Origin: Bolinopsis microptera
Lineage: Eukaryota > Ctenophora > Tentaculata > Lobata > Bolinopsidae
Direction of reading: 5' to 3'
Length of the DNA: 64,000 nt
NCBI RefSeq assembly: GCF_026151205.1
Contig: NC_087072.1
Location: 9,235,669-9,299,668, forward strand
The notes below the pieces were generated by a model. The model was not told the DNA's origin. It was given only the letters and a program-made list of their open reading frames with translations, and searched no databases. Below, piece after piece: positions 129-38,575 of this stretch (its first letter is position 1; each line of letters opens with the position of its first letter). The translations under genes were made by a program, and so were the position numbers.

Positions 129-1218
129 TGCCAGTTCAAAAGACGGCCATCTTTTTCCTACTTCTTCTATACGCCATTACCCTCGTCTACTTTTTGAAAG
201 AGGGGAACTTTGGTGACAAATCATCTGTGGTACTTATTGTAGACACTGGAGCTCAAGTGCAAGAATCTGGGTTTTCAGAGGAAAGTAGAGTTGAGAAAAA
301 GTGGGACTCAATCTCTCATCAAAATATTACTGACCTGGATGTTCATGACTCGAACAGTCTAAATATAAAACCTCCTCGCCAGGATTGGGCCGCTTCTCAA
401 ATGAAGAAGACAATGGCTTTGTTAGATATGGAATACCCTACGACTAAAGAATGGAGAGAATGTGGGCCTAGAACGTACTACTTTCCTAACATTAACGCTA
501 TTTTCACCGGCATACCAAAAACTGGCTGCACCAACTGGATCATCGCCTTACTTCGGGCCGAAGGAAAGTTGACGAAAGAACCAAATCCATCCAACGTAAA
601 CTGGGTTCACGGGAAGGTGTCCTACGAGAACCGGATGAACAGAGTCCCTGATCAGTACACCAGTTCAGACTTTCAAAAAGCATTCAGTTTCGCAACCCCT
701 GGACTCGTTTAGTTTCAGGGTTCCGGGACAAATTGTCCGATGAGAATAATCAGGGACCCTCACTCAGAGTTATTGGTATGTGGGTTGTTCGAGATATAAG
801 GGGGGTAAAGGACCGTGAGGTGCTGAGAGAACTTTACCCCACCTTTGAAGAGTTTGCTAGGTATTTAGTCAAGTGGTATGGTGTGCGGGAAGTAAATGCT
901 CATTTCATCCCTCAAACGGATCACTTATGTTTGAGACATGCTATTTATGATTTTATAGTTCCTTTAGAACATTCTGGTAGCCTTGGTCAGGAGGTTTTAA
1001 AGAAAATTAACGCATCTGATACGTCTCTACTGGGCTCTTATGATAAATCTCAAGATCCTCGTCACCAAAAATCAACTTTGTTCGCCAAGAATTGGCTCTC
1101 TGAGTTGGATCAAGACCTCATCGAGCAAGTGTACACTATTTTCAAAGCAGACTTTGCTTTGCTAAATTATAGTAATTTTACGCACCCCGATTTTCCTCTC
1201 CCCTTACATAATATTTAG
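129..1218 (+). pseudogene. Carbohydrate sulfotransferase pseudogene (HNK-1ST/CHST family), frameshifted
   Basis: This is a divergent relative of the five intact sulfotransferase genes at 19.5-28.9 kb. A splice acceptor (TAATTTCAG) ends just upstream, so the ATG at 129 is the likely start; it gives a signal-anchor N-terminus with a hydrophobic run at residues 7-19. The 5'-phosphosulfate-binding motif IPKTGCTNW is present. At 690/691 the frame breaks: compared with the paralogues about 10 bases are missing, which removes the Thr-Val-Val that precedes RNPWTR in the 3'-phosphate-binding motif. The second frame then runs RNPWTRLVSGFRDKL to a stop at 1216-1218 and keeps the family C-terminus (NYSNFTHPDFPLPLH). 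No other disabling change was seen, so loss is recent or this is a sequencing error. If genuine, the lesion destroys PAPS binding even were the frame rescued. Confidence 0.85.
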
Positions 1219-3061: not shown

Positions 3062-3150
3062 TATAATAAATAAAGTCATATTTTAATTAACATTTAAGCT
3101 TGGTACAAACCCCAATTAAACTTTCCGTTTGTGTTTCACTTGTGTTTGTT
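3062..3150. other. AT-rich spacer between repeats
   Basis: A short AT-rich stretch with a TTTG-rich run joining the foldback element to the SINE tail. Nothing else is seen. Confidence 0.4.
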
Positions 3151-3414
3151 GTTTGTTTGTTTATAGAACCCGTCCCCAATCTCGTATCGGAAAATGACTA
3201 AACTCAGGTCTGAGTGTGAATACGGGTGGTACCTGCAAGAGTGTTCATTAAGCATTTAGAGTTCTGTAAAACTGCAGTTACAATTGTGCTAGAGTATTTT
3301 TAGTATATACGATTGGTATCAGATATATATCCCTACATGCTTCCAAAATTTGTAAAGCCGTAGTACATACATATCACATTACACCGGAGCCTACACAGTG
3401 CAATCTCCCCCAGT
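3151..3414 (-). mobile_element. SINE-like retroelement, longest copy (about 264 bp)
   Basis: Read on the minus strand, this element ends in GGGTTCTATAAACAAACAAA, an (AAAC)n tail. The same sequence occurs interrupted at 12126-12299 plus 18854-18950 (split by the LINE) and as a 5'-shortened copy at 38408-38565 that has a clean target-site duplication. Three copies with a simple tail and 5' shortening indicate spread by LINE machinery. No convincing tRNA cloverleaf was found in the head, so its polymerase III origin is unproven. Confidence 0.75.
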
Positions 3415-8400: not shown

Positions 8401-9001
8401 TTGACGAAATTTCCCCGGCAACGGGGACATAGAAGAAAAAACACCGAAAATCGACCTCAAAATGACCCTCTGGTGATGCCAAACCCAGCTCGCAAATGGA
8501 GTTGAAACCTCGCCATTTTTAGCAGGGTTGTAGAAAAAGGATAGGAATAGGCTATAGCATTCTTAGAATTTTGATTTAGGCTTTAGATTTTTTATAATAA
8601 ACGTCGGAAGTGAGGTTAAATAATCGTTAGAATAATGGCGTTATTTTAGCAAAGGTTTACTGCGCTGTTGCGTAGCAACGATAAAAATGCACGTGCGCGA
8701 GCAAGAACATCTTAACTACGCGCGTTGTTATGCTGTATGCATGCTACGTCATAACTTCAAAACTAGCTCACATTTACGCTCACGCTATGACTTATATTCA
8801 TAACTTTGGTTGTGATTGGTATTTTTTGATGCGGTAAAAAGTATCGTTTTGGGAATCCGAATACTAACAACGCTGTCGCCATTGTTAAATAAATTCCATT
8901 ATGTCTACTGTATAACAGAGCTGTATGATGAAGAGAAATTAAAACATAACTGATTTTTAAAATTTCCTCGAACAAAGCTTTCGACTAGCGGGTTTCTAGT
9001 A
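8401..9001. other. Gene-free stretch
   Basis: No coding region recognised. GTTGCGTAGCAAC near 8663 is an imperfect palindrome resembling an RFX X-box half-site pair. The stretch separates outlying satellite units from the main array. Confidence 0.35.
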
Positions 9002-9912
9002 CCTTATATCTGGAGTTAACGTTACATTATACCTTACATCTAGAGTTAACGTTACATTATACCTTACATTTAGAGTTAACGTTACATTATACCTTACATC
9101 TAGAGTTAACGTTACATCATACCTTACATCTAGAGTTAACGTTACATTATACCGTACATCTAGAGTTAACGTTACATTATACCTTTCATCTAGAGTTAAC
9201 GTTACATTATACCTTACATCTAGAGTTAACGTTACATTATACCTTACATTTAGAGTTAACGTTACATTATACCTTACATCTAGAGTTAACGTTACATTAT
9301 ACCGTACATCTAGAGTTAACGTTACATTATACCGTACATCTAGAGTTAACGTTACATTATACCTTACATCTAGAGTTAACGTTACATTATACCTTACATC
9401 TAGAGTTAACGTTACATTATACCGTACATCTAGAGTTAACGTTACATTATACCTTACATCTAGAGTTAACGTTACATTATACCTTACATCTAGAGTTAAC
9501 GTTACATTATACCTTACATCTAGAGTTATAACGTTACATTATACCTTACATCTAGAGTTAACGTTACATTATACCTTACATCTAGAGTTATAACGTTACA
9601 TTATACCTTTCATCTAGAGTTAACGTTACATTATACCTCACATCTAGAGTTATAACGTTACATTATACCTTACATCTAGAGTTAACGTTACATTATACCT
9701 TTCATCTAGAGTTAACGTTACATTATACCTTACATCTAGAGTTAACGTTACATTATACCGTACATCTAGAGTTAACGTCACATTATACTGTACATCTAGA
9801 GTTAACGTTACATTATACCTTTCATCTAGAGTTAACGTTACATTATACCTTACATGTAGAGTTATAACGTTACATTATTCCTTACATCTAGAGTTAACGT
9901 TACATTATACAT
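9002..9912 (+). repeat. 30-bp satellite array, about 30 copies
   Basis: The unit reads ACCTTACATCTAGAGTTAAC then GTTACATTAT and is repeated about 30 times with very few changes: CTT/CGT and ATC/ATT variants, and a few units lengthened to 32 bp by an extra TA before ACGTTAC. There are no unique spacers between units. The unit contains the palindromes TCTAGA and GTTAAC. Variant units alternate along the array, as expected of unequal crossing-over. Confidence 0.9.
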
Positions 9913-12125: not shown

Positions 12126-12299
12126 TTTGTTTGTTTGTTTAAAGAACCCGTCCCCAATCTCGTATCGGAAAATGACTAAACTCAGGTCTGAGTGTGAATA
12201 CGGGTGGTACCTGCAAGAGTGTTCATTAAGCATTTGGAATTCTCTAAAACTGCAGTTACAATTGTGCTAGAGTATTTTTAGTATATACGATTGGTATCA
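12126..12299 (-). mobile_element. SINE, left part of a copy split by the LINE
   Basis: Matches the tail-proximal part of the SINE at 3151-3414 almost base for base, including the (AAAC)n tail on the minus strand. It stops at ATCA (12296-12299), where the uninterrupted SINE continues into GATATATATCCC. That continuation is found 6.5 kb away at 18858. Confidence 0.8.
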
Positions 12300-12379
12300 A
12301 TCATTTTTACTTTCATTCAATCATTTTTACTTTTCATTCAATCATTTTTACTTTCATTCAATCATTTTTACTTTACATT
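12300..12379 (+). repeat. Tandem 20-21-bp repeats in the LINE 5' leader
   Basis: ATCATTTTTACTTTCATTCA is repeated three times and followed by a partial fourth unit. Tandem repeats at the 5' end of LINEs often carry promoter activity; here that role is inferred. Confidence 0.7.
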
Positions 12380-12454
12380 ACGCATCAACATTTTTGCTCT
12401 CTAATCTTTTCACAAGTGCACTGACTTGCTGATAAGAAACTGCTTGATTTTATC

Positions 12455-14248
12455 ATGTCCGGCCATCTTAACAAGTCGACCTCTGCTGCTAACAAGACTC
12501 CTGCTGCTAAGAAGACTCCTGCTAGGAAGAACAGTATCACTAAACCTGCTGCCTCCGGGTCACCCTCCGACACGGAGGCACCCTCCCTCGGTATGTTGGG
12601 CTTTGGTGTGCCATCAATTTACACGTTTTGCGCTAAGACGTGTTTAAACGTTTTACCTACCCTCTCCAAAGAAGATATAGATTTTGAATACAACAGGCTC
12701 CGTTTAATTGACTCCGCATTTACTGGCAAAGCCACTAAGCCTGACACCAAACAAGCCGCCATCAAACAATATCTAACACGTCAAATAGTCGTTGATATAG
12801 ATCAATCCATGAATAGTCTAACTGCGGCAGCTAACTTACTTTCATGTACTGTTAATGGGGAGTGCGAGAAGGCGGTGAAACATCTAACAGAACGTGCTCT
12901 GACGGCGATCGAAGAAGTCTCTGATGAAACGAAGAAACAGACCACCCTCATCACACAGCAGACTGCAACTCTCATCTCTGAAGCCCCCTCGCAGAACCTC
13001 GACACTTCCAGAGAAGTTACAAGTATGCCTCATTCGCCGGTAAGACTTTTAGAGTGCGATCTTTCCGAGTTAACTTTTGATAAAGTTTCAAGTGAGCTAA
13101 ACTTTGACATGCACCACCCTGGAGGCCGTATCACAACTTATTATGGCTCCGTCCCCTACACGTACGGCAGAACCTCACATCCTGTCTCTGTTGGGCCACT
13201 TCCACCCACTCTGGAACATGCGTACGAGCAACTGCAAAAACTGGACGCTGACATAACCCCAGAGAACTACACTTGCCTTTGCACTTTATACAAGGACGGA
13301 TCGGTCGGCATACCGATGCATAATGACAGCGAACCTAGCATAATGGAGGATAGTCAAATTTATACAGTGTCGATTGGAGCACCTAGAAACCTTAGGATAT
13401 CAAGTACAGTAGGCCCCTTTGTCGAGCATAACATTCCACTTGAGCACGGTTCACTTTACGTCATGTCACGAGCAGATCAGGACAACTGGCGCCACGGCAT
13501 TGACCGCGATATCTCGGTAAGGTTTCCACGCATTTCACTGACTTTCCGCAAACTGAAACAACAAGAGTCATGCACTGTGCCTGCACCTCCAGCTCTCCAT
13601 CGGATACCACCTGTTGCCCCTCCAGCTCAGAACTCCTCCTCTCAGTCTCGTCACTCCAGGGTCCTATTCATACATGACTCTATTCATCGTGAAACACCTG
13701 AATGGTTGTTCGATCAGATACCCGGCCACCGCTGTCAGAAGCGTTTGAACTACCAGCTCATAGACTCTTTGGATCATGACCTCAAACATGCCAAAACTGT
13801 GATCATCTCATGTGGCATAAACGATCTTTCACGGTATGGAAAATCTGCCAAGAGTCTGGCTGATAACTTTTGTCCCCGCCTTGTCGAAAGCTGTAAGAGC
13901 AACAAAAGCACACAGTTTGTTTTTTGTGCTTTGTCTTTAACGAGAATTGGTTGGTTGAACAGAGAAATTGATGATTTTAATCTATGTATGGTGAATCTCG
14001 CCAGGGTGATACCCAATCTGACATTTTACGATGCCCATGCCGTTATCAAGCGGGTTCATTCATACTACGTATGGGACCGCAATGATAAGCATGGCATCCA
14101 TTTACATCACGATGTCAGAAGGGCTGTTGCATATGAACTTGTCAACTGCGTTGGCAAGTTATGTGGATCAGAACTGCCACGCCACAGGAACTGTGCGTGG
14201 CTCTACCACCATGAGCCTAACAGTCCTTTCAGATATCACCGTGGTTGA
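12455..14248 (+). CDS. LINE ORF1 protein: AlkB-like dioxygenase plus SGNH-esterase-like domain
   Basis: 597 residues. Residues 1-40 are basic and Lys/Ala/Pro/Ser-rich, likely nucleic-acid binding. Residues about 215-368 form an AlkB-type Fe(II)/2-oxoglutarate dioxygenase: iron ligands H289-x-D291 (IPMHNDSEP) and H347 (NWRHGI), and the 2-oxoglutarate/substrate arginines R359 and R365 in RISLTFR, with the family's six-residue spacing. GPLPPTLEHAYEQL and LYKDG also fit the family. Residues about 400-570 look like an SGNH hydrolase: FIHDSI with S409, CGIND (N456, D457) and HGIHL with H549. Esterase domains are known in CR1-type ORF1 proteins; AlkB domains are known in plant RNA viruses, where they repair alkylated RNA. 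The AlkB chemistry predicts oxidative demethylation of nucleic acid; the substrate here is unknown. The Gly of GDS and the usual Asp three residues before the catalytic His are both His. Confidence 0.85.
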   Translation: MSGHLNKSTSAANKTPAAKKTPARKNSITKPAASGSPSDTEAPSLGMLGFGVPSIYTFCAKTCLNVLPTLSKEDIDFEYNRLRLIDSAFTGKATKPDTKQAAIKQYLTRQIVVDIDQSMNSLTAAANLLSCTVNGECEKAVKHLTERALTAIEEVSDETKKQTTLITQQTATLISEAPSQNLDTSREVTSMPHSPVRLLECDLSELTFDKVSSELNFDMHHPGGRITTYYGSVPYTYGRTSHPVSVGPLPPTLEHAYEQLQKLDADITPENYTCLCTLYKDGSVGIPMHNDSEPSIMEDSQIYTVSIGAPRNLRISSTVGPFVEHNIPLEHGSLYVMSRADQDNWRHGIDRDISVRFPRISLTFRKLKQQESCTVPAPPALHRIPPVAPPAQNSSSQSRHSRVLFIHDSIHRETPEWLFDQIPGHRCQKRLNYQLIDSLDHDLKHAKTVIISCGINDLSRYGKSAKSLADNFCPRLVESCKSNKSTQFVFCALSLTRIGWLNREIDDFNLCMVNLARVIPNLTFYDAHAVIKRVHSYYVWDRNDKHGIHLHHDVRRAVAYELVNCVGKLCGSELPRHRNCAWLYHHEPNSPFRYHRG

Positions 14249-14988
14249 GCACTAATCCATAAATGAATTAATTATATAAAAATCAACCTTTTCTGTCAAG
14301 CCCTTAAATTAAGCATATCATCAAGTATTTTCATATCTTTTTCAGTACATCCTCACTCCTCATCCAAATTCATCATTTGATTGCTACCACGATCGATTTT
14401 TGAAGAAATGATCTGATTGGTCGAAAATGCTTATCTTCTTAAGCTTATCAGATGAACTGATGAACATTCTTTCACTATCAAGCATTTTTGTCTCTTATCA
14501 TCCCACCATACATTTCCTAAAACATTTTCACATTACCAAACAAAACTGTGCACATTTTATTTAATAATTATAGAAGCTTCTCTGGTAAATCAGCATCAAG
14601 CACGTTTCCTCAGTCAAAGTTCAGTGCAACAGTATTTTCGAAAACTTCACAAACAACTAAATAGCAAAAATCACCACACAAAACTACACAACGAAACAAT
14701 TTCACACATACAAATCACAACGACTTAATATACACTTTAGGTAAAGTCATATTATCATACTGATAAGCCCGAAAATCGAGATAAGGGCACTATATTGTAA
14801 CATTTGATTTAGCGAATATTTTTAACAAATAAGTAGATAAGACTCAGATCACGATTCTGTAGCATACAGGACCTCCGGTTCTCGTGAAAGAATCTGATTT
14901 GCACTAGTATAGATATATTTTACGTTATTTATAAATTTATACATTTTTTATTCTCTAATTCCTCCACAAGCATAAGAGTTAACTTAAA
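14249..14988 (+). other. LINE inter-ORF region
   Basis: 740 bp of AT-rich sequence without a long frame separates the two ORFs. In most two-ORF LINEs the frames nearly touch or overlap, so ORF2 must be translated by another route: a separate promoter, splicing, or internal initiation. A/C-rich unstructured stretches (14620-14730) come before the ORF2 start. Confidence 0.6.
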
Positions 14989-17900
14989 ATGGCAGCGAAT
15001 GGAAATGTTACTGATACTTCTGGTCATAAAATCAAAATAAAATGTGGTAGCTGTAGCGGCTGGTGTTATTCTTCCAAAAACATCCGCAGCTGTTCATGGT
15101 GCCAAAACAACGTCCACGTCAAATGTTTTAAGGAAAATTTAGGTTGTACAAGCTGTTGTGAAAGTCTTATTCCTGGATTTTACGCGACTTACTATGAAAT
15201 TTACGATGACTACAATAAGCTTAATTGCGCTATTTATAATCCATACGCTCAAAATAGTCGATGTAATCTTATTGGAGACGCCATGACCAATGAAGAGCAC
15301 CAGGATTCAACATGGAGTGACATTTCGGCTTTCCTAACTCACTGTCAGTATAAACAGCAACGTAACGTAAAAAGGTCGACATCCTCTCAACTTAAAACAT
15401 TTTCCATGAATATCAGATCCCTTTTCAAAAATATTGATCAACTACGAGAAGATATAGAAATATATGATAAGTATGATGTATTGTGTTTTAACGAAACTAA
15501 CTGCACACTAGAAAAATTGCCTAACGGAATAAACGACATCACATTAAATGGATTCCATGAACCGTATATCCAAGATCCCATCCGCACATCGGGTAAAGGT
15601 GGGGGGCTTGCCATATACATACACAAACGTGTAGCTGACTCTGATAAAATTGATATTTTCAATCCCAACCCTGAACCCTCAAATACTAGCGGCGAATTTC
15701 AATTTATCAAGATCCACCAGTGTAAAGGATATAATAGAACAAAGATAATTGGAAATGTTTATCGCTCTCCCGCTAGAAAACCTGAAGCATTTCTTGAAAT
15801 TTTTAAAAGTACGCTTCACAACCTGGGAAGACACTCTCGCAAACATATGACGTTACATGGAGATTTTAATCTAAATTTACTGAAGCACAGTAGCAACCAG
15901 GCATGTCAAAGCATTATAGATATTGCATCCTCTTACGGTTTCATCCAAATTGTATCACGTCCAACTCGCATAACAGACCACAGTGCCACGCTTATTGATC
16001 ATATCTACACGAACAATCTTGAAGATACAATAAGCTGCAACGTATTAACGACAGATCTGTCGGATCACTTAGCGATAGTTACAACAATTAATCTTGATAA
16101 TACATCCACCAGCAGTTACCGCTCCGCATCTTATAATCAAAATCCAACACAAACCAACGTACGTAGTTTTAATGAGGCCAACAACCATAAATTTAGAGAT
16201 TTAATAATGGAAGAAAATTGGTCTGTAATACTAACAAATACCCCTGATGCTAACCAGCAGTTTGATTGTTTAAATTCGGCTTACAACAGGATTTATAACG
16301 CTGCCTACCCGACAAAAAGACAGTCCGAGCGCAGACAAAATGAACGTGTTAATCCCAAACCATGGATACTGCCCTGGCTTGAAGAAGCTATAGAACGTAA
16401 AAATCAGGCATATCATGATTTTGTTAAGGAACCAGTTGATAGGAACCAGCTAAAATATGACCGTTTGAAAAAGTTTTGCACCAAACACGTTGACAAAGCC
16501 AAAAACATACACTACAAAAAATTCTTTGAACAACACAAAGATAATTCTAAGAAGCAGTGGCAGATGATTAACGGACTTCTGAATAGGAAACCAGCCAAAC
16601 CTACATCGATAAAACTGTCGGACGAAAACGGACAAGTCAGCACTCCGGCAGCAGTAGCAGAAAAATTTAATGATCACTTCTCAAACATCGCTCCAAAAAT
16701 TAAATCTGAAATTAGTAGTAGGACCACTTTCGATCCTGGTGGGGCCCAGGGGACACTACGTAACCCTTCTCCAAATAGTATCTACATAAAACCAGTCACA
16801 ACTACCGAAGTTCAAGACGTTATTAACCTATTTAAGAATAAAGCTACTCTTGACACCAAAATCCAACCACTCAAAATTGCCAACAGCTGTCATAATTTTA
16901 CCACTGTATTGGCCCACGTTGTTAACAGCTCGTTCGAACAAGGGGTCTTTCCCCAAGCCTTGAAAACGGCAAAAGTAGTTCCTGTACATAAATGTGGATC
17001 TAAAACTGACATCAAAAATTACAGACCGATATCTCTACTTGCCACTTTCTCAAAAGTCTACGAAAAGCTTATGCACAATCGAGTCATAAATTTCTTGGAT
17101 ACCTACAATATACTTTGTGAAAATCAATACGGCTTCCGCCCAGGTAGGTCTTGTGAACATGCACTTCTTAATGCTAAAGACAGAATCCTCAATTCAATGT
17201 CTAAAAAGCAAGTTACTTTGCTCCTCTTGATTGACTTTAGCAAAGCCTTTGACCTTGTGGATCACTCCATACTCCTGAATAAGCTCGAGCACTATGGCAT
17301 AAGAGGTCTAGCTTTAAACTGGTTTAAATCATATCTTATGAACAGAAACCAGTTTGTATCAATTGGATCCTCTGAATCCTCAGCCAATCCAATTATTTAC
17401 GGTGTACCCCAAGGTTCAATTTTGGGACCTCTCCTTTTTATAATCTACATAAACGATCTTCCTCAAATATCAGAAATAGCTAATTTCATCATGTACGCAG
17501 ATGATGCAAACATTTTCCTAACAGGAGAAAATATAAACGAGGTTTATGATAAGCTCAAAATTCTTAGCGATGTCTTAGTTAAATGGGTAGATAACAACGG
17601 ATTAGCTCTAAATCTTAAAAAAACGAATTATATGATCTTTTCTCGACAAAGAAACCTCATTTATCGCGATGTAGTAATTTCTGGTGTCACAATCGAAAGA
17701 AAAACAGAAGCCCGTTTCTTAGGTGTTATAATAGATAACAAACTGAACTGGTCGCAACATATTTCTGCCATGAAAATGAAAATGGCCAGATACATTGGAG
17801 TCATGTACAAACTTAAAAAATATTTGCCTCTGGAAGCACGTTTACAAATATATCACAGCTTTGTGCAGTCTCACCTTAATTACTGCTCCCTCGTCTGGGG

Positions 17901-18474
17901 TTTTGCTGCCAAATCCCATATAGAAACACTATTTGTTAAACAGAAAATGGGTCTTAGAGCAATACTACCAGGTTTTGTTAATTACTGGTACAAAGATGGT
18001 ACACCACCAGCAAGTACCAAGTCTGGTTTCTATGTACACAAAATATTGACAGTTCAAAGTATCATCGTGAAGAACGCATTAGTTTTTATACATAAGCTAA
18101 AAAACTTCCCAAGTCTAGTGCCTCCCTCTATAAAGAAAACAATACCTAACAGTGCACCAATATTTAACGTCGCCGATCCGGATTCGAGTCTTACAACTTT
18201 ATGGTCAGATGAATACGGTAAACACCCTTACAATAATTCAGTATTCTACAAAGGTCCACTATTAGCAATAAACAGATATAGTGTCGCAGCAACTTCCTTG
18301 CCAAGTCTATTCAACCTTAACATCTACAAAAGGTGCATAAAAAACATGCTCATTGATCAACAAAACGAGGGCATTGCAGACGAATGGCCTAACTTTATGT
18401 TATACAATATAACGGGACTAAGGAAATCAGAGCGCAACATCAACCGTAATGCTAATAATAACTCTGTCCCATAA
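14989..18474 (+). CDS. LINE ORF2 protein: zinc finger, APE endonuclease and reverse transcriptase
   Basis: 1,161 residues and intact. The N-terminus has a Cys/His zinc-finger array: C19-x2-C22, C35-x2-C38, H43-x2-C46 and C53-x2-C56, resembling a PHD or treble-clef fold. The endonuclease domain follows at about residues 125-365, with FNETN, GNVYRSP, LHGDFNLNL and the terminal LSDH, all expected of APE-type target-nicking enzymes. The reverse transcriptase occupies about residues 560-900: NYRPISLLATFSK, QYGFRPGRS, LIDFSKAFD, GVPQGSILGPLLF and the catalytic YADD, then FLGVIIDNKLNW. It would nick genomic DNA and copy the element RNA by target-primed reverse transcription. It has no C-terminal RNase H or restriction-like nuclease. 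The best fit is the CR1/Jockey-type group. Confidence 0.93.
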   Translation: MAANGNVTDTSGHKIKIKCGSCSGWCYSSKNIRSCSWCQNNVHVKCFKENLGCTSCCESLIPGFYATYYEIYDDYNKLNCAIYNPYAQNSRCNLIGDAMTNEEHQDSTWSDISAFLTHCQYKQQRNVKRSTSSQLKTFSMNIRSLFKNIDQLREDIEIYDKYDVLCFNETNCTLEKLPNGINDITLNGFHEPYIQDPIRTSGKGGGLAIYIHKRVADSDKIDIFNPNPEPSNTSGEFQFIKIHQCKGYNRTKIIGNVYRSPARKPEAFLEIFKSTLHNLGRHSRKHMTLHGDFNLNLLKHSSNQACQSIIDIASSYGFIQIVSRPTRITDHSATLIDHIYTNNLEDTISCNVLTTDLSDHLAIVTTINLDNTSTSSYRSASYNQNPTQTNVRSFNEANNHKFRDLIMEENWSVILTNTPDANQQFDCLNSAYNRIYNAAYPTKRQSERRQNERVNPKPWILPWLEEAIERKNQAYHDFVKEPVDRNQLKYDRLKKFCTKHVDKAKNIHYKKFFEQHKDNSKKQWQMINGLLNRKPAKPTSIKLSDENGQVSTPAAVAEKFNDHFSNIAPKIKSEISSRTTFDPGGAQGTLRNPSPNSIYIKPVTTTEVQDVINLFKNKATLDTKIQPLKIANSCHNFTTVLAHVVNSSFEQGVFPQALKTAKVVPVHKCGSKTDIKNYRPISLLATFSKVYEKLMHNRVINFLDTYNILCENQYGFRPGRSCEHALLNAKDRILNSMSKKQVTLLLLIDFSKAFDLVDHSILLNKLEHYGIRGLALNWFKSYLMNRNQFVSIGSSESSANPIIYGVPQGSILGPLLFIIYINDLPQISEIANFIMYADDANIFLTGENINEVYDKLKILSDVLVKWVDNNGLALNLKKTNYMIFSRQRNLIYRDVVISGVTIERKTEARFLGVIIDNKLNWSQHISAMKMKMARYIGVMYKLKKYLPLEARLQIYHSFVQSHLNYCSLVWGFAAKSHIETLFVKQKMGLRAILPGFVNYWYKDGTPPASTKSGFYVHKILTVQSIIVKNALVFIHKLKNFPSLVPPSIKKTIPNSAPIFNVADPDSSLTTLWSDEYGKHPYNNSVFYKGPLLAINRYSVAATSLPSLFNLNIYKRCIKNMLIDQQNEGIADEWPNFMLYNITGLRKSERNINRNANNNSVP

Positions 18475-18853
18475 GCACGCCATCACAGAATCAATTTCAC
18501 TGCATACCATCTCAGTTACACTGCCATCAATTCGCCAGCAAAAACGGCATGACGCTATGCGACTGATAACAGTCGTTAAATTTTAAAAATTTTGGAATTG
18601 CTAGCTAGCAGTAGCTATGCGCCTGTTTCCACTCTAACAACTCTAAAAGCATATTAATATGATAATTTCAACTAAAGGCAACTTTATATGTGCTCAGCTA
18701 TGTTTTGTTTCGACAAGCTCTATTATATACATTTTAATCGTTTTAATGAGATCTAATCTTGTATGAGTTTTGAGTTTGAATTGAAAACACTTATTATATA
18801 TATTATTTTTTGAGTAAACATTGGCTGGTACTTCGGGCCGGTCCCCAACAAAA

Positions 18854-18950
18854 ATCAGATATATATCCCTACATGCTTCCAAAATTTGTAAAGCCGTAGT
18901 ACATACATATCACATTACACCGGAGCCTACACAGTGCAATCTCCTCCAGT
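18854..18950 (-). mobile_element. SINE, right part of the copy split by the LINE
   Basis: Continues exactly where the left part (12126-12299) breaks off after the duplicated ATCA, matching 3323-3414 of the intact copy with few changes. Confidence 0.8.
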
Positions 18951-19484: not shown

Positions 19485-20579
19485 ATGGTAGAGGATGGTC
19501 AATCTGTTATAGTTAAAAAACGGTACATATTCCTTGCGATTTTTGCTCTTGCAGCGGTATTCGTTCTCCTGCTTCCTGACCGAGCTAAAACCGTCTCCAA
19601 TCTTCATGTAAAAACTGTTATTTCAAAGATTTCCTCTGATTCTTCGCTCGTAGAAACGACTGCATCTTCTTCAGAAAATATCAATCACACTTCTTTAGAA
19701 GACGAAACATTTTCGGTTTTGGAACCACCCTCTCAAAAATGGGCTCAAGACCAGTTTGAAAAATCACTGGTCTTAATGCACCAAAAATACAGTCAACCAA
19801 GTATGTGGGAAAACTGTGGTATGCAAACATATTATTTCGAGAACATAAAAACAATTTTCACGGGAATTCCAAAGACAGGATGTTCCAACTGGATTGAGGC
19901 TCTGCTCCGAGCTAACGGAGATCTAAAGAACCAACTAAATCCAACTGAGGTGAAAAAGGTACACGGTGGAATTAGCAACAAGCACAGAATACCGAACATA
20001 TTGAACCGCTTTAACGCCTCAGTATTCCAACAAGATTTCAGTTTTACCGTGGTCAGGAACCCCTGGACCAGAATGGTTTCTGGTTACAGAGATAAATTAT
20101 CAGACGAGAAAACTCAGGGAGGTTCGTTTCGGTCTATAGGGAAAAATATTGTGAAAGAGATGAGAGGCATTACTAACGAGGAAGCACGTGATAAGTTATA
20201 CCCAACGTTTACAGAGTTTGCTTCATGGCTCGTCAACCACAATGGATCGGAGAACCGACATTTTTACCAACAATTCAGAACTTTGTGTATACCTGCAGCT
20301 AGATACGATTATATTATCCCTCTTGAGTATGCTGGACCCTTAAGTCAGGATGTCTGGGGTAGAATCAATGCAAGCACCTCATTGCTAGGATCATATGATG
20401 AATCATCGGACCCTCGCCTTCAAAAATCAACCCTTTATGCTAAGGAGTGGTTTTCAAAGATTGACGAGAACACAATTGAGAAATTGTATAATATTTTTAG
20501 AATAGACTTTGCTCTTATGGACTATAGTAACTTTACACATCCAGATTTCCCGTTACCTTTGCATGATTTAAAACAATGA
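19485..20579 (+). CDS. Carbohydrate sulfotransferase, HNK-1ST/CHST8-14 family, copy 1
   Basis: 364 residues in one coding exon. The predicted enzyme transfers sulfate from PAPS to a sugar hydroxyl on a glycoprotein or proteoglycan in the Golgi lumen. Residues about 14-31 form a hydrophobic signal anchor (type II membrane protein), then a Ser/Thr-rich stem. The 5'-phosphosulfate site is IPKTGCSNW (residues 128-136) and the 3'-phosphate site is RNPWTRMVSGYRDKL (from R191). The C-terminus has YDYIIPLEYAG and ends in NFTHPDFPLPLH. NxS/T glycosylation sites occur (NHTS, NAS, NFT). The sugar acceptor cannot be read from sequence. An acceptor two bases before ATG implies a 5' UTR intron or spliced leader. 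Confidence 0.93.
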   Translation: MVEDGQSVIVKKRYIFLAIFALAAVFVLLLPDRAKTVSNLHVKTVISKISSDSSLVETTASSSENINHTSLEDETFSVLEPPSQKWAQDQFEKSLVLMHQKYSQPSMWENCGMQTYYFENIKTIFTGIPKTGCSNWIEALLRANGDLKNQLNPTEVKKVHGGISNKHRIPNILNRFNASVFQQDFSFTVVRNPWTRMVSGYRDKLSDEKTQGGSFRSIGKNIVKEMRGITNEEARDKLYPTFTEFASWLVNHNGSENRHFYQQFRTLCIPAARYDYIIPLEYAGPLSQDVWGRINASTSLLGSYDESSDPRLQKSTLYAKEWFSKIDENTIEKLYNIFRIDFALMDYSNFTHPDFPLPLHDLKQ

Positions 20580-21242
20580 AATAAAGTTAAAATTAAATTG
20601 ACTTTTAAATTTTACAATAATTATATGCGAAAATGAAAAATTACCAATTAATCCCAATGTAGTTCCCGGTGACCAGGAAGTTACCAGTGTTCAATAATTG
20701 TGCTTTGATACAAGAGTAGATAACTTCAATCGAGACGATCAAATTTTCAAACTTGCTCCATGTCTTGAAATTGGTTATTAGGAAATTTCTAGATGCGTAA
20801 AGGAGTCCGAGTAAGCCGTGATGAATAAATGATTTAAGATGCAATTATTATTAGATTATTTCCTGATACGAGATTGGGGACAAGTACATTACAAGTACAT
20901 TACACGTGTACTTATTACTTTTTGTATACTGAGCTTGCGTTAAACCTAATACTGCGACAAACGGAAAGCCCAAAGGTACACGTCAAATGTGGCTTTATGT
21001 AGTGAAGTGTACTTTAATGACTCGCTATCTCAACTGAAGTGTGTCATCAGTCCGATAATTTGTGTTGATATTTGATAACATGCAGTGAAGCAGCATGAAA
21101 AGAAGTCGCATGAAAAGAAGTCGCATGAAAAGAAGTGCAGACTGTAGAGTGTGGATTGACAAAGAATTGAAGAAGGTGTTATGTGCACAAAATCTTCTCA
21201 ATTAAATCATTTGTGTGGTTATTTTAGTCTTGAATTGCAGTA
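20580..21242 (+). repeat. Spacer of the sulfotransferase array, unit 1
   Basis: Shared with the other spacers: a 3' flank (ATTACCAATTAATC, GTTCCCGGTGACCAGGAAG) and a block with CTGATACGAGATTGGGGAC, part of which matches the tail side of the SINE family over 17 bases. A 15-bp unit (CGCATGAAAAGAAGT) is present about three times near 21092-21136; the other spacers have about two. Confidence 0.75.
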
Positions 21243-22328
21243 ATGGTAGAGGATGGTAAATCTGTTAGAGTTAAAAAACGATACGTATTCCTTGGGATTT
21301 TTGCTCTTTCAGCAGTATTCGTCCTCCTGTTTCCTGACCAAGCTACAGCCATCTCCAATCTTCGTATAAAAACTGTTAGTGTTACCTCAACGCCTTCTCC
21401 GGGCATAGAAACGACTGCATCTTCTTCAGAAAATATCAATCACATATCTTTAGAAGACGAAACATTTTCGGTTTTGAAACCACCCTCTCAAAAATGGGCT
21501 CAAGAACAGTTTAAAAAAGCATTGGTCTTAATGGACCAAAAATACAGTCAACCAAGTATGTGGGAAAACTGTGGAAAGCAAACATATTATTTCGAGAACA
21601 TAAAAACAATTTTCACGGGAATTCCAAAGACAGGATGTTCCAACTGGATTGAGGCTCTGCTCCGAGCTAACGGAGATCTAAAGAACCAACTAAATCCAAC
21701 TGAGGTGAAAAAGGTACACGGTGGAATTAGCAACAAGCACAGAATACCGAACATATTGAACCGCTTTAACGCCTCAGAATTCCAACAAGATTTCAGTTTT
21801 ACCGTGATCAGGAACCCCTGGACCAGAATGGTTTCTGGTTACAGGGATAAATTATCAGACGAGAAAACTCAGGGAGGTTCGTTTCGGTCTTTAGGGAAAA
21901 ATATTGTGAAAGAGATGAGAGGCATTACTAACAAGCAAGAGCTTGATAAGTTATATCCAACTTTTACAGAGTTTGCATTATGGCTCGTCAAGCACAATGG
22001 ATCGGGTAACCCACATTTTCACCAACAATTCAAAACTTTGTGTATACCTGCAGCTAGATACGATTATATTATCCCTCTTGAGTATGCTGGACCCTTAAGT
22101 CAGGATGTCTGGGGTAGAATCAATGCAAGCACCTCATTGCTAGGATCATATGATGAATCATCGGACCCTCGCCTTCAAAAATCAGCCTTTTATGCTAAGG
22201 AGTGGTTTTCAAAGATCGACGAGAACACAATTGAGAAATTGTATAATATTTTTAGAATAGACTTTGCTCTTATGGACTATAGTAACTTTACACATCCAGA
22301 TTTCCCGTTACCTTTGCATGATATATAA
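21243..22328 (+). CDS. Carbohydrate sulfotransferase, copy 2
   Basis: 361 residues with the same architecture as copy 1: signal anchor, stem, IPKTGCSNW and IRNPWTRMVSGYRDKL. It differs from copy 1 mainly in the stem (SVTSTPSPGIE) and in a block before the last third (ITNKQELDKLYPTFTEF, then LVKHNGSGNPHFHQQF). It ends LPLHDI, two residues shorter than its neighbours. The acceptor TTGAATTGCAG ends two bases before the ATG. The start codon is supported by conservation across all copies. Confidence 0.93.
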   Translation: MVEDGKSVRVKKRYVFLGIFALSAVFVLLFPDQATAISNLRIKTVSVTSTPSPGIETTASSSENINHISLEDETFSVLKPPSQKWAQEQFKKALVLMDQKYSQPSMWENCGKQTYYFENIKTIFTGIPKTGCSNWIEALLRANGDLKNQLNPTEVKKVHGGISNKHRIPNILNRFNASEFQQDFSFTVIRNPWTRMVSGYRDKLSDEKTQGGSFRSLGKNIVKEMRGITNKQELDKLYPTFTEFALWLVKHNGSGNPHFHQQFKTLCIPAARYDYIIPLEYAGPLSQDVWGRINASTSLLGSYDESSDPRLQKSAFYAKEWFSKIDENTIEKLYNIFRIDFALMDYSNFTHPDFPLPLHDI

Positions 22329-22948
22329 AACAATGAAATTAAATTAAAATTAAATTGACTTTTAAATTTTACAATAATTATATGCGAAAATGGAAAATTA
22401 CCAATTAATCCCATAGTTCCCGGTGACCAGGAAGTTACCAGTGTTCAATAATTGTGTTTTGATACAAGAGTAGATAATTTCAATCGAGACGATCAAATTT
22501 TCAAACTTGCTCCATGTCTTGAAATTGGTTATTAGGAAATTTCAATATGCGTAAAGAAGTCCGAGTAAGCCGTGATAAATAAATAATTTAAGATGCAACT
22601 GAGTTAGATTATTTCCTGATACGAGATTGGGGACAAGTACATTACAAGTACATTACACGTGTACTTATTACTTTTTGTATACTGAGCTTGCGTTAAACTT
22701 AATACTGCGACAAACGGAAAGCCCAAATGTACACGTCAAATGTGGCTTTATGTAGTGAAGTGTGTCATTAGTCCGATAATTTGTGCTGATATTTGATAAC
22801 ATACAGTGAAGCCGCATGAAAAGAAGTCGCATGAAAAGAAGTGCAGACTGTAGAGTGTAGATTGACAAAGAATTCAAGAAGGTTTTGTGTGCACAAAACC
22901 TTCTCAATTAAATCATTTGTGGGGTTATTTTAGTCTTGAATTGCAGTA
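22329..22948 (+). repeat. Spacer of the sulfotransferase array, unit 2
   Basis: Closely similar to the spacer at 20580-21242, a little shorter, with no inserted segment. Contains the CTGATACGAGATTGGGGAC block and two copies of the 15-bp CGCATGAAAAGAAGT unit. Confidence 0.75.
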
Positions 22949-24040
22949 ATGGTAGAGGATGGTAAATCTGTTAGAGTTAAAAAACGATACGTATTCCTTG
23001 GGATTTTTGCTCTTTCAGCAGTATTCGTCCTCCTGTTTCCTGACCAAGCTACAGCCATCTCCAATCTTCGTATACAAATTGTTAGTGTTACCTCAACGCC
23101 TTCTCCGGACATAGAAACGACTGCATCTTCTTCAGAAAATATCAATCACATTTCTTTAGAAGACAAACAATTTTCGGTTTTGGAACCACCCTCTCAAAAA
23201 TGGGCTCAAGAACAGTTTAAAAAAGCACTGGTCTTAATGGACCAAAAATACAGTCAACCAAGTATGTGGGAAAACTGTGGAAAGCAAACATATTATTTCG
23301 AGAACATAAAAACAATTTTCACGGGAATTCCAAAGACAGGATGTTCCAACTGGATTGAGGCTCTGCTCCGAGCTAACGGAGATCTTAAGAACCAACTAAA
23401 TCCAACTAAGGTGAAAAAGGTACACGGTGGAATTAGCAACAAGCACAGAATACCGAACATATTAAACCGCTTTAACGCCTCAGAATTCCAACAAGATTTC
23501 AGTTTTACCGTGGTCAGGAACCCCTGGACCAGAATGGTTTCTGGTTACAGAGATAAATTATCAGACGAGAAAACTCAGGGAGGTTCGTTTCGGTCTATAG
23601 GGAAAAAGATTGTGAAAGAGATGAGAGGCATTACTAACAAGCAAGAGCTTGATAAGTTATATCCAACTTTTACAGAGTTTGCTTCATGGCTCGCCAAACA
23701 CTATGGATCGGGTAACCCACATTTTCACCAACAATTCAAAACTTTGTGTATACCTGCAGCTAGATACGATTATATTATCCCTCTTGAGTATGCTGGACCC
23801 TTAAGTCAGGATGTCTGGGGTAGAATCAATGCAAGCACCTCATTGCTAGGATCATATGATGAATCATCGGACCCTCGCCTTCAAAAATCAGCCTTTTATG
23901 CTAAGGACTGGTTTTCAAAGATTGACGAGAACACAATTGAGAAATTGTATAATATTTTTAGAATAGACTTTGCTCTTATGGACTATAGTAACTTTACACA
24001 TCCAGATTTCCCGTTACCTTTGCATGATTTAAAACAATGA
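22949..24040 (+). CDS. Carbohydrate sulfotransferase, copy 3
   Basis: 363 residues. Both PAPS-binding motifs are intact (IPKTGCSNW, VVRNPWTRMVSGYRDKL). It is almost identical to copy 4: I count only a handful of residue differences, all in the first third (LLF/LLL, RIQIV/RIKTV, EQF/DQF). The block WLAKHYGSGNPHFHQQF is shared only by copies 3 and 4. The splice acceptor is again two bases before ATG. Confidence 0.93.
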   Translation: MVEDGKSVRVKKRYVFLGIFALSAVFVLLFPDQATAISNLRIQIVSVTSTPSPDIETTASSSENINHISLEDKQFSVLEPPSQKWAQEQFKKALVLMDQKYSQPSMWENCGKQTYYFENIKTIFTGIPKTGCSNWIEALLRANGDLKNQLNPTKVKKVHGGISNKHRIPNILNRFNASEFQQDFSFTVVRNPWTRMVSGYRDKLSDEKTQGGSFRSIGKKIVKEMRGITNKQELDKLYPTFTEFASWLAKHYGSGNPHFHQQFKTLCIPAARYDYIIPLEYAGPLSQDVWGRINASTSLLGSYDESSDPRLQKSAFYAKDWFSKIDENTIEKLYNIFRIDFALMDYSNFTHPDFPLPLHDLKQ

Positions 24041-25392
24041 AATATAATTAAAATTAAATTGACTTTTAAATTTTACAATAATTATATGCGAAAATGGAAA
24101 ATTACCAATTAATCTCAATGTAGTTCCCGGTGACCAGGAAGTTACCAGTGTTCAATAATTGTGTTTTGATACAAGAGTAGATAATTTCAATCGAGACGAT
24201 CAAATTTTCAAACTTGCTCCATGTCTTGAAATTGGTTATTAGGAAATTTCAAGATGCGTAAAGGAGTCCGAGTAAGCCGTGATGAATAAATGATTTAGGA
24301 TGCAACTGAGTTAGATTATTTCCTGATACGAGATTGGGAACAAGTACATTACAAGTACATTACACGTGTAATTGTTACTTTTTGTATACTGAGCTTGCGT
24401 TAAACTTAATACTGCGACAAACGGAAAGCCCAAAGGTACACGTCAAATGTGGCTTTATGTTGTGAAGTGTACTTTGATGACTTGCTATCTCAACTGAAGT
24501 GTGTCATTAGTCCGATAATTTGTGCTGATATTTTGTTTTAAGTGCGAACACTTTAATGTAAGTAGTTTACTTGATTTAGACTTTTGGTTTTGTACAAGTA
24601 AGACAACTATCTAAAATGTGGTGATTAGAAATAGCGTCTCACAATAAAAGTGATCTAAACATCATTGATCCTCTTCTTATAAAGGTTGTCACTTGTCATC
24701 TTCTCCGTATGTTTATCCCCTCCATTCTTGATCGTCAAAACATACGTCCTCATCAAACCATCCATCGTTAACTTTCTGCAGTCCTCGCCAAAACATCAAT
24801 CGTTAACTTTCTGCAGTCCTCGCCAAAACATCAATCTTTAACTTTCCGTAGTCCTCGCCAAAACATCAATCTTTAACTTTCCGTAGTCCTCGCCAAAACA
24901 TCAATCTTTAACTTTCCGTAGTCCTCGCCAAAACATCTATCTTTAACTATCCGCATTCACTCCTGTCCACAGGTTTAAACTGTAGACTCTTGTTACATGT
25001 ATGAGGCTTGAATGTGAAAGTAGTACCATGTGACTATGAGATCTGGTTGATCTCTGATCACATGGTATTGGAGTAATGAGATTATGTATCTCTAGTCATA
25101 GATTCCTATAGCTTAGAATTCGGATTTAAATTAGACTACTGGATGGAACCTTGATATAACGACAAGTAACGAGTAATGAGTAAGATTAGATATTACTCTC
25201 TGGACACGAAATCCTATGGATTCGTGGTTACAACAATTTGGTAACATGCAGTGAAGCCGCATGAAAAGAAGTCGCATGAAAAGAAGTGCAGACTGTAGGG
25301 TGTAGATTGACAAAGAATTCAAGCAGTTTTGTGTGCACAAAACCTTCTCAATTAAATCATTTGTGTGGTTATTTTAGTCTTGAATTGCAGTA
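24041..25392 (+). repeat. Long spacer of the sulfotransferase array, with a 0.7-kb insertion
   Basis: The standard spacer is interrupted after GTGCTGATATT (about 24533) by roughly 710 bp not present in the first two spacers, and resumes at GTAACATGCAGTGAAGCCGC (about 25241). The same insertion is in the next spacer, so it predates the last duplication. It contains the 35-bp minisatellite and a palindromic block around CATGTGACTATGAGATC. No coding region was seen. Confidence 0.75.
24772..24955 (+). repeat. 35-bp minisatellite, five units plus a partial
   Basis: The unit begins CAATCTTTAACTTTCCGTAG and continues TCCTCGCCAAAACAT. Two CGTTAACTTTCTGCAG variants are followed by three CTTTAACTTTCCGTAG units and a diverged partial. 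The next spacer has one unit fewer. Confidence 0.85.
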
Positions 25393-26484
25393 ATGGTAGA
25401 GGATGGTAAATCTGTTAGAGTTAAAAAACGATACGTATTCCTTGGGATTTTTGCTCTTTCAGCAGTATTCGTCCTCCTGCTTCCTGACCAAGCTACAGCC
25501 ATCTCCAATCTTCGTATAAAAACTGTTAGTGTTACCTCAACGCCTTCTCCGGACATAGAAACGACTGCATCTTCTTCAGAAAATATCAATCACATTTCTT
25601 TAGAAGACAAACAATTTTCGGTTTTGGAACCACCCTCTCAAAAATGGGCTCAAGACCAGTTTAAAAAAGCACTGGTCTTAATGGACCAAAAATACAGTCA
25701 ACCAAGTATGTGGGAAAACTGTGGAAAGCAAACATATTATTTCGAGAACATAAAAACAATTTTCACGGGAATTCCAAAGACAGGATGTTCCAACTGGATT
25801 GAGGCTCTGCTCCGAGCTAACGGAGATCTTAAGAACCAACTAAATCCAACTAAGGTGAAAAAGGTACACGGTGGAATTAGCAACAAGCACAGAATACCGA
25901 ACATATTAAACCGCTTTAACGCCTCAGAATTCCAACAAGATTTCAGTTTTACCGTGGTCAGGAACCCCTGGACCAGAATGGTTTCTGGTTACAGAGATAA
26001 ATTATCAGACGAGAAAACTCAGGGAGGTTCGTTTCGGTCTATAGGGAAAAAGATTGTGAAAGAGATGAGAGGCATTACTAACAAGCAAGAGCTTGATAAG
26101 TTATATCCAACTTTTACAGAGTTTGCTTCATGGCTCGCCAAACACTATGGATCGGGTAACCCACATTTTCACCAACAATTCAAAACTTTGTGTATACCTG
26201 CAGCTAGATACGATTATATTATCCCTCTTGAGTATGCTGGACCCTTAAGTCAGGATGTCTGGGGTAGAATCAATGCAAGCACCTCATTGCTAGGATCATA
26301 TGATGAATCATCGGACCCTCGCCTTCAAAAATCAGCCTTTTATGCTAAGGACTGGTTTTCAAAGATTGACGAGAACACAATTGAGAAATTGTATAATATT
26401 TTTAGAATAGACTTTGCTCTTATGGACTATAGTAACTTTACACATCCAGATTTCCCGTTACCTTTGCATGATTTAAAACAATGA
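25393..26484 (+). CDS. Carbohydrate sulfotransferase, copy 4
   Basis: 363 residues, the near-twin of copy 3, with identical catalytic and C-terminal regions. Both genes share the 3' flank and the long inserted spacer, so copies 3 and 4 arose by a recent tandem duplication of about 2.4 kb. Signal anchor, IPKTGCSNW and VVRNPWTRMVSGYRDKL are all intact, and the acceptor lies two bases before ATG. Confidence 0.93.
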   Translation: MVEDGKSVRVKKRYVFLGIFALSAVFVLLLPDQATAISNLRIKTVSVTSTPSPDIETTASSSENINHISLEDKQFSVLEPPSQKWAQDQFKKALVLMDQKYSQPSMWENCGKQTYYFENIKTIFTGIPKTGCSNWIEALLRANGDLKNQLNPTKVKKVHGGISNKHRIPNILNRFNASEFQQDFSFTVVRNPWTRMVSGYRDKLSDEKTQGGSFRSIGKKIVKEMRGITNKQELDKLYPTFTEFASWLAKHYGSGNPHFHQQFKTLCIPAARYDYIIPLEYAGPLSQDVWGRINASTSLLGSYDESSDPRLQKSAFYAKDWFSKIDENTIEKLYNIFRIDFALMDYSNFTHPDFPLPLHDLKQ

Positions 26485-27797
26485 AATATAATTAAAATTA
26501 AATTGACTTTTAAATTTTACAATAATTATATGCGAAAATGGAAAATTACCAATTAATCTCAATGTAGTTCCCGGTGACCAGGAAGTTACCAGTGTTCAAT
26601 AATTGTGTTTTGATACAAGAGTAGATAATTTCAATCGAGACGATCAAATTTTCAAACTTGCTCCATGTCTTGAAATTGGTTATTAGGAAATTTCAAGATG
26701 CGTAAAGGAGTCCGAGTAAGCCGTGATGAATAAATGATTTAGGATGCAACTGAGTTAGATTATTTCCTGATACGAGATTGGGAACAAGTACATTACAAGT
26801 ACATTACACGTGTAATTGTTACTTTTTGTATACTGAGCTTGCGTTAAACTTAATACTGCGACAAACGGAAAGCCCAAAGGTACACGTCAAATGTGGCTTT
26901 ATGTTGTGAAGTGTACTTTGATGACTTGCTATCTCAACTGAAGTGTGTCATTAGTCCGATAATTTGTGCTGATATTTTGTTTTAAGTGCGAACACTTTAA
27001 TGTAAGTAGTTTACTTGATTTAGACTTTTGGTTTTGTACAAGTAAGACAACTATCTAAAATGTGGTGATTAGAAATAGCGTCTCACAATAAAAGTGATCT
27101 AAACATCATTGATCCTCTTCTTATAAAGGTTGTCACTTGTCATCTTCTCCGTATGTTTATCCCCTCCATTCTTGATCGTCAAAACATACGTCCTCATCAA
27201 ACCATCCATCGTTAACTTTCTGCAGTCCTCGCCAAAACATCAATCGTTAACTTTCTGCAGTCCTCGCCAAAACATCAATCTTTAACTTTCCGTAGTCCTC
27301 GCCAAAACATCAATCTTTAACTTTCCGTAGTCCTCGCCAAAACATCTATCTTTAACTATCCGCATTCACTCCTGTCCACAGGTTTAAACTGTAGACTCTT
27401 GTTACATGTATGAGGCTTGAATGTGAAAGTAGTACCATGTGACTATGAGATCTGGTTGATCTCTGATCACATGGTATTGGAGTAATGAGATTATGTATCT
27501 CTAGTCATAGATTCCTATAGCTTAGAATTCGGATTTAAATTAGACTACTGGATGGAACCTTGATATAACGACAAGTAACGAGTAATGAGTAAGATTAGAT
27601 ATTACTCTCTGGACACGAAATCCTATGGATTCGTGGTTACAACAATTTGGTAACATGCAGTGAAGCCGCATGAAAAGAAGTCGCATGAAAAGAAGTGCAG
27701 ACTGTGGGGTGTAGATTGACAAAGAATTCAACATTTTGTGCACAAAACCTTCTCAATTTAATCATTTGTGTGGTTATTTTAGTCTTGAATTGCAGTA
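26485..27797 (+). repeat. Long spacer of the sulfotransferase array, second copy of the insertion
   Basis: Nearly identical to 24041-25392 but about 39 bp shorter, largely through the loss of one 35-bp minisatellite unit. The inserted segment runs from about 26949 to 27649. Confidence 0.75.
27206..27365 (+). repeat. 35-bp minisatellite, four units plus a partial
   Basis: Same unit order as at 24772-24955 but with two rather than three CTTTAACTTTCCGTAG units. Confidence 0.85.
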
Positions 27798-38407: not shown

Positions 38408-38565
38408 GTTTGTTTGTTTGTTTATAGAACCCGTCCCCAATCTCGTATCGGAAAATGACTAAACTCAGGTCTGAGTGTGAATACGGGTGGTACCTGCAAG
38501 AGTGTTCATTAAGCATTTAGAGTTCTGTAAAACTGCAGTTACAATTGTGCTAGAGTATTTTTAGT
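38408..38565 (-). mobile_element. SINE copy, 5'-shortened, with 10-bp target duplication
   Basis: AACCACATAT at 38398-38407 is repeated at 38566-38575. Between them is the tail-side 158 bp of the SINE family, with its (AAAC)n tail on the minus strand and its 5' end lost at ACTAAAAATACTC. Duplication, tail and 5' shortening together identify retrotransposition. Confidence 0.88.
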
Positions 38566-38575
38566 AACCACATAT

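Follow-up and report, generated by a model that had tools for sequence, protein, structure and literature searches.

The locus described here raises the question of what an AlkB-type dioxygenase would do inside the ORF1 protein of a LINE. ORF1 proteins are poorly understood (PMC3905857), and for those of the esterase type a role at membranes has been proposed but is not settled. In the window, by which we mean the whole 64-kb stretch of Bolinopsis microptera DNA that was analyzed, a first-pass annotation had noted an intact reading frame of 597 residues that appeared to fuse an AlkB domain to an SGNH-esterase-like domain, and had suggested that the element might erase methyl marks from its own RNA, its cDNA or its target. 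The latter suggestion is compatible with the domain findings presented below, and the fusion itself is supported for the AlkB half and probable for the SGNH half.

Architecture of the element

The frame in question, ORF1, extends from 12455 to 14248 on the + strand and consists of an ATG start and 597 codons without an internal stop, with coordinates exactly as annotated; all residues that had been singled out beforehand (H289, D291, H347, R359, R365, S409, N456, D457 and H549) are found at their places. It is part of a full-length APE-type LINE of 6554 bp (12300..18853, +) with both ORFs intact and a build like that of CR1 and L2 elements, in which a 5' UTR, ORF1, an inter-ORF spacer, ORF2 and a 3' UTR follow one another. 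The limits of the element were obtained by comparison with an empty site in the same window, an uninterrupted copy of the target repeat at 3149..3414. This repeat has a length of about 266 bp, and the LINE splits one copy of it into two segments, 12127-12299 and 18854-18950; the left segment agrees with the empty site at 97.7% over its 173 bp, and the right one, 97 bp in length, at 99%. The letters ATCA, present a single time in the empty site, flank the LINE on both sides, at 12296..12299 and 18854..18857, and thus constitute a 4-bp target-site duplication. As the LINE itself opens with ATCA, the same letters as the duplication, its ends are uncertain by about 4 bp, and within this margin the clean ends ascribed to the element beforehand are borne out by the empty site. 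The target repeat opens with TTTG repeats, and a further partial copy of it is found at 38409-38566; its copies are 97-99% alike to the sequences flanking the LINE.

At its extreme 5' end (12297..12379, +) the element has an array of a 20-bp unit repeated in tandem four times (4.1 copies with 95% matches by Tandem Repeats Finder); the array stops at 12379, and ORF1 starts 75 nt further on. The inter-ORF spacer (14249..14988, +) comprises 740 nt with a GC content of 31% and contains stops in the ORF2 frame within the 300 nt preceding ORF2, the part that was checked. A stretch of 24 bp in this spacer resembles part of the 5' UTR to a degree seen in 0 of 500 shuffles; as that part of the 5' UTR was picked after inspection, no conclusion is drawn from the likeness. 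In the 3' UTR (18475..18853, +), a hairpin with a 7-bp outer stem is predicted at about 18820-18842, directly before the 3' end of the LINE, and a 100-nt fold of this region is no more stable than its shuffles (z 0.27). From the 5' tandem array, the intact ORFs and the precise empty site we infer that the insertion is young and full-length.

ORF2 (14989..18474, +) encodes an intact protein of 1161 residues, and the zinc finger, APE-type endonuclease and reverse transcriptase that had been assigned to it are all confirmed by motifs and Pfam. The finger is of the C4HC3 (PHD/C1-like) type, with the pattern CxxC..CxxC..HxxC..CxxC in residues 19-56 (15043..15156, +; Pfam C1_1 0.018, sub-threshold). 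It is followed by the endonuclease in residues 139-360 (15403..16068, +; Pfam Exo_endo_phos 7.1e-6), with N, E, D-x-N and SDH motifs, and by the reverse transcriptase in residues 672-915 (17002..17733, +; Pfam RVT_1 6.7e-38), with GVPQGS and YADD. Up to E 1 these three Pfam families are the only ones matched, and RNase H is not among them. Judged by its motifs, such a combination of domains agrees with the CR1/L2 part of the Jockey superfamily.

Several other features share the window with the LINE. A weak remnant at 50737-50973 resembles ORF2 residues 893-971 with 28% identity (E 1.8e-6 within the window). A frame of 965 residues at 45070-47967 (+) combines a PHD finger (4.1e-9) with a reverse transcriptase (1.6e-10) and represents another retroelement type with a PHD finger; it has no APE match up to E 0.1, and its C-terminal Cys/His and Asp motifs resemble, by eye, a restriction-like endonuclease. 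Some 630 bp downstream of the LINE begins a tandem array (19485-28889, +) of sulfotransferase (PF03567) frames that are 361-364 residues long and apparently lack introns; Pfam was run on three of its five full-length frames and on a fragment at 733-1218 (+), and all of these matched. Satellite arrays are located at 9000-9910 (unit of 30 bp), 35313-36412 (430), 40798-41964 (323) and 63784-63912 (12).

An AlkB domain in the ORF1 protein

The N-terminal region of ORF1p is rich in lysine, with 7 Lys/Arg against 2 acidic residues among residues 1-45, and contains two long predicted helices, a possible coiled coil, in residues 98-175 (12746..12979, +; AF2, pLDDT of 42-63 as ten-residue means). The heptad signal of these helices is weak, in that 83 of 2000 shuffles reach its score. 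Residues 191-369 (13025..13561, +) form an AlkB-type Fe(II)/2-oxoglutarate dioxygenase domain. The Pfam profile PF13532 matches with 64.5 bits against a cut-off of 31.2, a phmmer search of the PDB finds ALKBH3 at 1.8e-16, and when the domain alone is compared with PDB sequences, ALKBH3 and then ALKBH2 are the sole families up to E 10, so that the sequence similarity behind the AlkB assignment is far beyond chance. As evidenced by Foldseek and VIA-align searches with the predicted structure, the model has the double-stranded beta-helix of an AlkB fold and is of high confidence; structure prediction had been named beforehand as the check that might overturn the assignment.

Identity to human ALKBH3 and ALKBH2 amounts to 24-28% in the VIA alignments and to up to 31% in those of Foldseek, and the fold matches include ALKBH3 bound to single-stranded DNA containing 3mC. 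ALKBH5 does not occur among the sequence matches with E values of up to 10 and ranks lower than ALKBH2 and ALKBH3 by fold, while several bacterial AlkB proteins score level with ALKBH3 against the ORF1p domain. Viral AlkB domains, including Riboviria and Picornavirales records, are found among the fold matches in BFVD as well. In a tree the ORF1p domain sits unplaced on an extremely long branch, which could also be expected from relaxed constraint or from a new role.

The iron ligands of the HxD...H motif are kept (H289, D291 and H347), and so is the 2-oxoglutarate motif RxxxxxR, in which R359 and R365 form part of RISLTFR and both arginines are found in 83 of 83 aligned relatives. In the Asn-x-Tyr motif that stabilizes 2-oxoglutarate, Tyr279 is kept, but the asparagine is replaced by Thr277; at this position 82 of the 83 relatives have Asn and one has Thr. 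The AlkB signature that had been called complete is therefore complete with respect to HxD, the second histidine and both arginines, but not with respect to the asparagine that helps to hold 2-oxoglutarate, and the exchange could weaken the binding of this cosubstrate. W217F and P224G are further departures from a strong AlkB consensus, and Met288 is a minority form shared with 5 of the 83 relatives.

The domain agrees with the majority residue in 58 of 168 aligned columns, or about one third. Despite this general divergence it retains every one of the 13 columns that are invariant among the 83 relatives, including H289, D291, H347, Y279, R359 and R365, which suggests that the active site has been under selection and is counted here in favor of an enzymatic reading. 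Four of the invariant columns (H289, D291, Q342 and H347) overlap the search patterns and are thus partly invariant by construction, which does not apply to the other nine, and as all 83 relatives were confirmed by their similarity to the ORF1p domain, every column is biased somewhat towards it.

The same residues bear on the view that the AlkB fold has little or no catalytic activity left and has been kept as a module for binding single-stranded nucleic acid, replacing the RRM or zinc knuckles that other ORF1 proteins have and this one lacks. Neither RRM nor CCHC is found among the four Pfam families that match ORF1p up to E 1, esterase-containing ORF1 proteins from RepBase are described as being without a structured RNA-binding domain (PMC3905857), and second-shell changes such as N277T and W217F would be in keeping with a loss of activity. 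A dead module should, however, lose its metal and 2-oxoglutarate ligands first, and all five of these survive together with Tyr279 in a domain that matches the majority at so few positions. We consequently regard a purely binding role as unlikely.

The SGNH-like C-terminal domain

Residues 400-570 of ORF1p (13652..14164, +) form an SGNH/GDSL-esterase-like domain that, to judge from its motifs and its modelled fold, is very probably derived from an SGNH esterase. Of the three blocks that can be read by eye, block I is represented by S409 in HDS, block III by N456 in GIND and block V by H549 in HGIHL, so that the serine, asparagine and histidine of the earlier assignment stand where an SGNH protein needs them. 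This does not extend to the aspartate expected three residues before the histidine, where His546 is found instead and D544 is close but out of register, nor to the profile cut-off: Pfam Lipase_GDSL_2 matches with E 0.0097 in the entire ORF1p and E 0.0014 in the isolated domain, both below the cut-off, and misses the gathering score with 19.6 bits versus 32.9. For the glycine of block II, visual inspection of residues 410-445 reveals no clear block. The order of the motifs was reproduced in 65 of 200000 shuffles with a loose pattern and in 1 with a strict one, in a test that was designed after the motifs had been seen and serves as a guide only.

No sequence in the PDB matches the domain up to E 10, and its AF2 single-sequence model, in which four strands alternate with helices, is of low confidence (pLDDT 45.8). 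With this model Foldseek returns three matches at E <= 0.001, all of them to the SGNH hydrolase TesA from E. coli (best 2.2e-4), and further down the list SGNH esterases share the ranks with other alpha/beta folds, among them quinone reductases and CobU. Of the 50 matches listed by VIA-align, 3 are designed scaffolds; the titles of the other 47 name esterases, lipases, (acyl)hydrolases, thioesterases, PAF acetylhydrolases, O-acetyltransferases or, in one instance, a hemolysin, which we take to be members of the SGNH superfamily. The esterase of ZfL2-1 (4c1b) is not among the 50 fold matches listed by Foldseek or VIA-align, which with a query model of such low confidence is uninformative either way. 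Searches of plasmids and phages with tblastn and this domain gave weak partial matches, with E values of at least 0.6 among the matches listed (for plasmids the best 10 of 27, for phages the best 10 of 23).

Relation to known elements and source of the fusion

ORF1p thus begins with a lysine-rich region and predicted helices, continues with an ALKBH2/3-like AlkB domain and then has a probable SGNH-esterase-derived domain. The closest parallel are the type IV (esterase) ORF1 proteins of CR1/L2 LINEs, for example zebrafish ZfL2-1 (PDB 4c1a, 4c1b), in which a coiled coil and a linker precede the esterase (PMC3905857). Both elements are APE-type LINEs with two ORFs, and in both ORF1p has a helical N terminus, a linker and a C-terminal SGNH-like domain, with no RRM or CCHC found. 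Unlike ZfL2-1, the present protein has a whole AlkB domain between the helices and the SGNH-like domain, and its His546 takes the place of the aspartate of the Asp-x-x-His pair, D279/H282 in ZfL2-1 (PMC3905857). By this analogy, it reads like an esterase-type ORF1 protein into whose linker an AlkB domain has been placed.

In a survey of 448 elements of the Jockey superfamily the ORF1 domains are given as RRM, CCHC, PHD, transposase 22, coiled-coil, leucine zipper/zinc finger and esterase. Esterase ORF1s are confined there to two vertebrate subgroups, neither AlkB nor oxygenase occurs as a word in the main text, and the subgroups L2_1 and CR1_2 have an unclassified ORF1 (PMC4120745). The same survey reports a PHD domain, probably at the start of ORF2, for L2 subgroup 5, which thus shares an early PHD-type finger in ORF2 with the present element, but has an ORF1 of the transposase-22 type (PMC4120745). 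SGNH domains have been captured repeatedly by retroelements, as is shown by the GDSL-esterase ORF3 of Vesta LTR elements and of Athena/Terminons in bdelloids, elements of other classes than the LINE, and the main text of that study does not contain the words dioxygenase or oxygenase (PMC5408684).

An AlkB domain has been described in Ty3/Gypsy elements of the orchid Phalaenopsis, where it shows m6A demethylase activity in vitro, and these are the sole retroelement-encoded AlkB among the matches listed from the open-licence literature (PMC9289625). The orchid and the ORF1p domain have in common that they are encoded by a retroelement and that the Fe(II) and 2-oxoglutarate residues are kept. The orchid element is an LTR element with a separate extra ORF that is ALKBH5-like and has an intact Asn-Tyr pair, the one printed as Asn193/Tyr195 of ALKBH5 and described as stabilizing 2-oxoglutarate (PMC9289625), whereas the present one is a LINE with an ALKBH2/3-like domain inside ORF1p, in which the Asn is replaced by Thr. 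Plant RNA viruses (Alphaflexi-, Betaflexi- and Closteroviridae) as well as Riboviria and Picornavirales likewise carry AlkB in an RNA-based replicator, where it presumably acts on their own RNA (PMC9289625); there it is part of polyproteins or replicases and, unlike in the LINE, reverse transcription is not involved. Human ALKBH3 and ALKBH2, in contrast to the ORF1p domain, are stand-alone host enzymes. A krill genome paper considered as a further precedent for AlkB in a retrotransposon concerns the host gene alkB2 only (PMC11294593). The matches listed from 5.39 million open-licence papers include no LINE whose ORF1 joins AlkB to an SGNH-like domain. While AlkB in a retroelement is therefore not new, an esterase-type LINE ORF1 that took up an AlkB domain appears to be so within this literature.

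As self-comparison of the 64-kb window revealed no second copy of the LINE, the fusion might be idiosyncratic to a single copy, created by capture of a host ALKBH cDNA or by an assembly error, rather than a trait of a LINE family. None of the sequences compared, however, exceeds about 35% identity over the AlkB domain, the highest value for a shorter stretch being 39% across 95 residues (locus L128), which rules out a recent capture of any compared gene, the host's own genes lying outside this comparison. In addition, the AlkB domain is placed in frame between two other regions of ORF1, within an element that has clean ends, and we hold a one-off fusion to be very unlikely. Among candidates for the source, a prokaryotic or viral fusion was set aside: 2 of 135 loci scanned (L120 and L130) have a stop-to-stop frame of more than 300 residues around the AlkB signature, in what is a weak test with flanks of 0.4 to 1.5 kb. 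A seemingly RT-like context near the AlkB of locus L091 is by eye not an RT motif, and searches of viral contigs with ORF1p and with ORF2p retrieved no relative of either.

A possible role in template repair

The element combines a well-formed predicted dioxygenase site in ORF1p with the parts for target-primed reverse transcription, and we infer that this site is functional and works on the RNA of the element itself. In the reading that we tentatively prefer, and to which we give close to an even chance, the AlkB domain demethylates m1A and m3C on the RNA template of the LINE, and the SGNH-like part is a membrane or lipid module. ORF1p would bind the LINE's own RNA in a ribonucleoprotein, where the AlkB domain would use Fe(II), O2 and 2-oxoglutarate to strip methyl groups from the Watson-Crick face (m1A, m3C) of the single-stranded template, and perhaps also from first-strand cDNA. 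Such marks stop reverse transcriptases, and their removal would be expected to raise the yield of full-length target-primed cDNA; LINE RNA would gain from cleaning because one reverse transcriptase must copy it end to end. The SGNH-like domain, as proposed for ZfL2-1, would put the particle at membranes or bind lipid, and may no longer hydrolyze well.

ALKBH2/3-type enzymes have m1A and m3C as their substrates, and because the ORF1p domain most resembles this type among the PDB sequences, removal of these marks is favored over the erasure of m6A. In RNA, m1A and m3C are demethylated by AlkB itself and m1G by its D135S variant (PMC8053708). Erasure of m6A, as proposed for the orchid Gypsy element, would free the element's RNA from m6A readers, granules or decay, and has its precedent in a retroelement-encoded AlkB that demethylates m6A in vitro; that domain, however, is ALKBH5-like (PMC9289625), whereas the one in ORF1p is ALKBH2/3-like. 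Moreover, L1 retrotransposition is promoted by the m6A writer METTL3 and suppressed by ALKBH5 (PMC7873242), and we judge this role to be rather improbable.

The resemblance to ALKBH2 and ALKBH3 would also be in line with DNA repair in cis, directed at alkylation damage in single-stranded DNA, either of the nicked target or of the first-strand cDNA, as both nearest relatives by sequence and fold have, according to the titles of their structures, been solved in complex with ssDNA and dsDNA. ORF1p is, however, expected in an RNA particle, and nothing puts it at the target site, so that repair of DNA, too, appears improbable to us.

Beyond the single element, demethylation of the template would point to an animal LINE lineage with template repair in its core particle, in which a bifunctional ORF1p, AlkB demethylase and SGNH-like protein in one, clears RT-blocking methyl groups from the RNA and from single-stranded cDNA; we consider this broader proposal possible, if somewhat doubtful. 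Alongside the SGNH-like part, an AlkB domain provides ORF1p with an enzymatic task that is tied to reverse transcription and open to experiment, and makes it testable whether alkylated bases, or m1A and m3C, in LINE RNA limit target-primed reverse transcription. It would add LINEs to plant RNA viruses and the orchid Gypsy elements as replicators with captured nucleic-acid demethylases.
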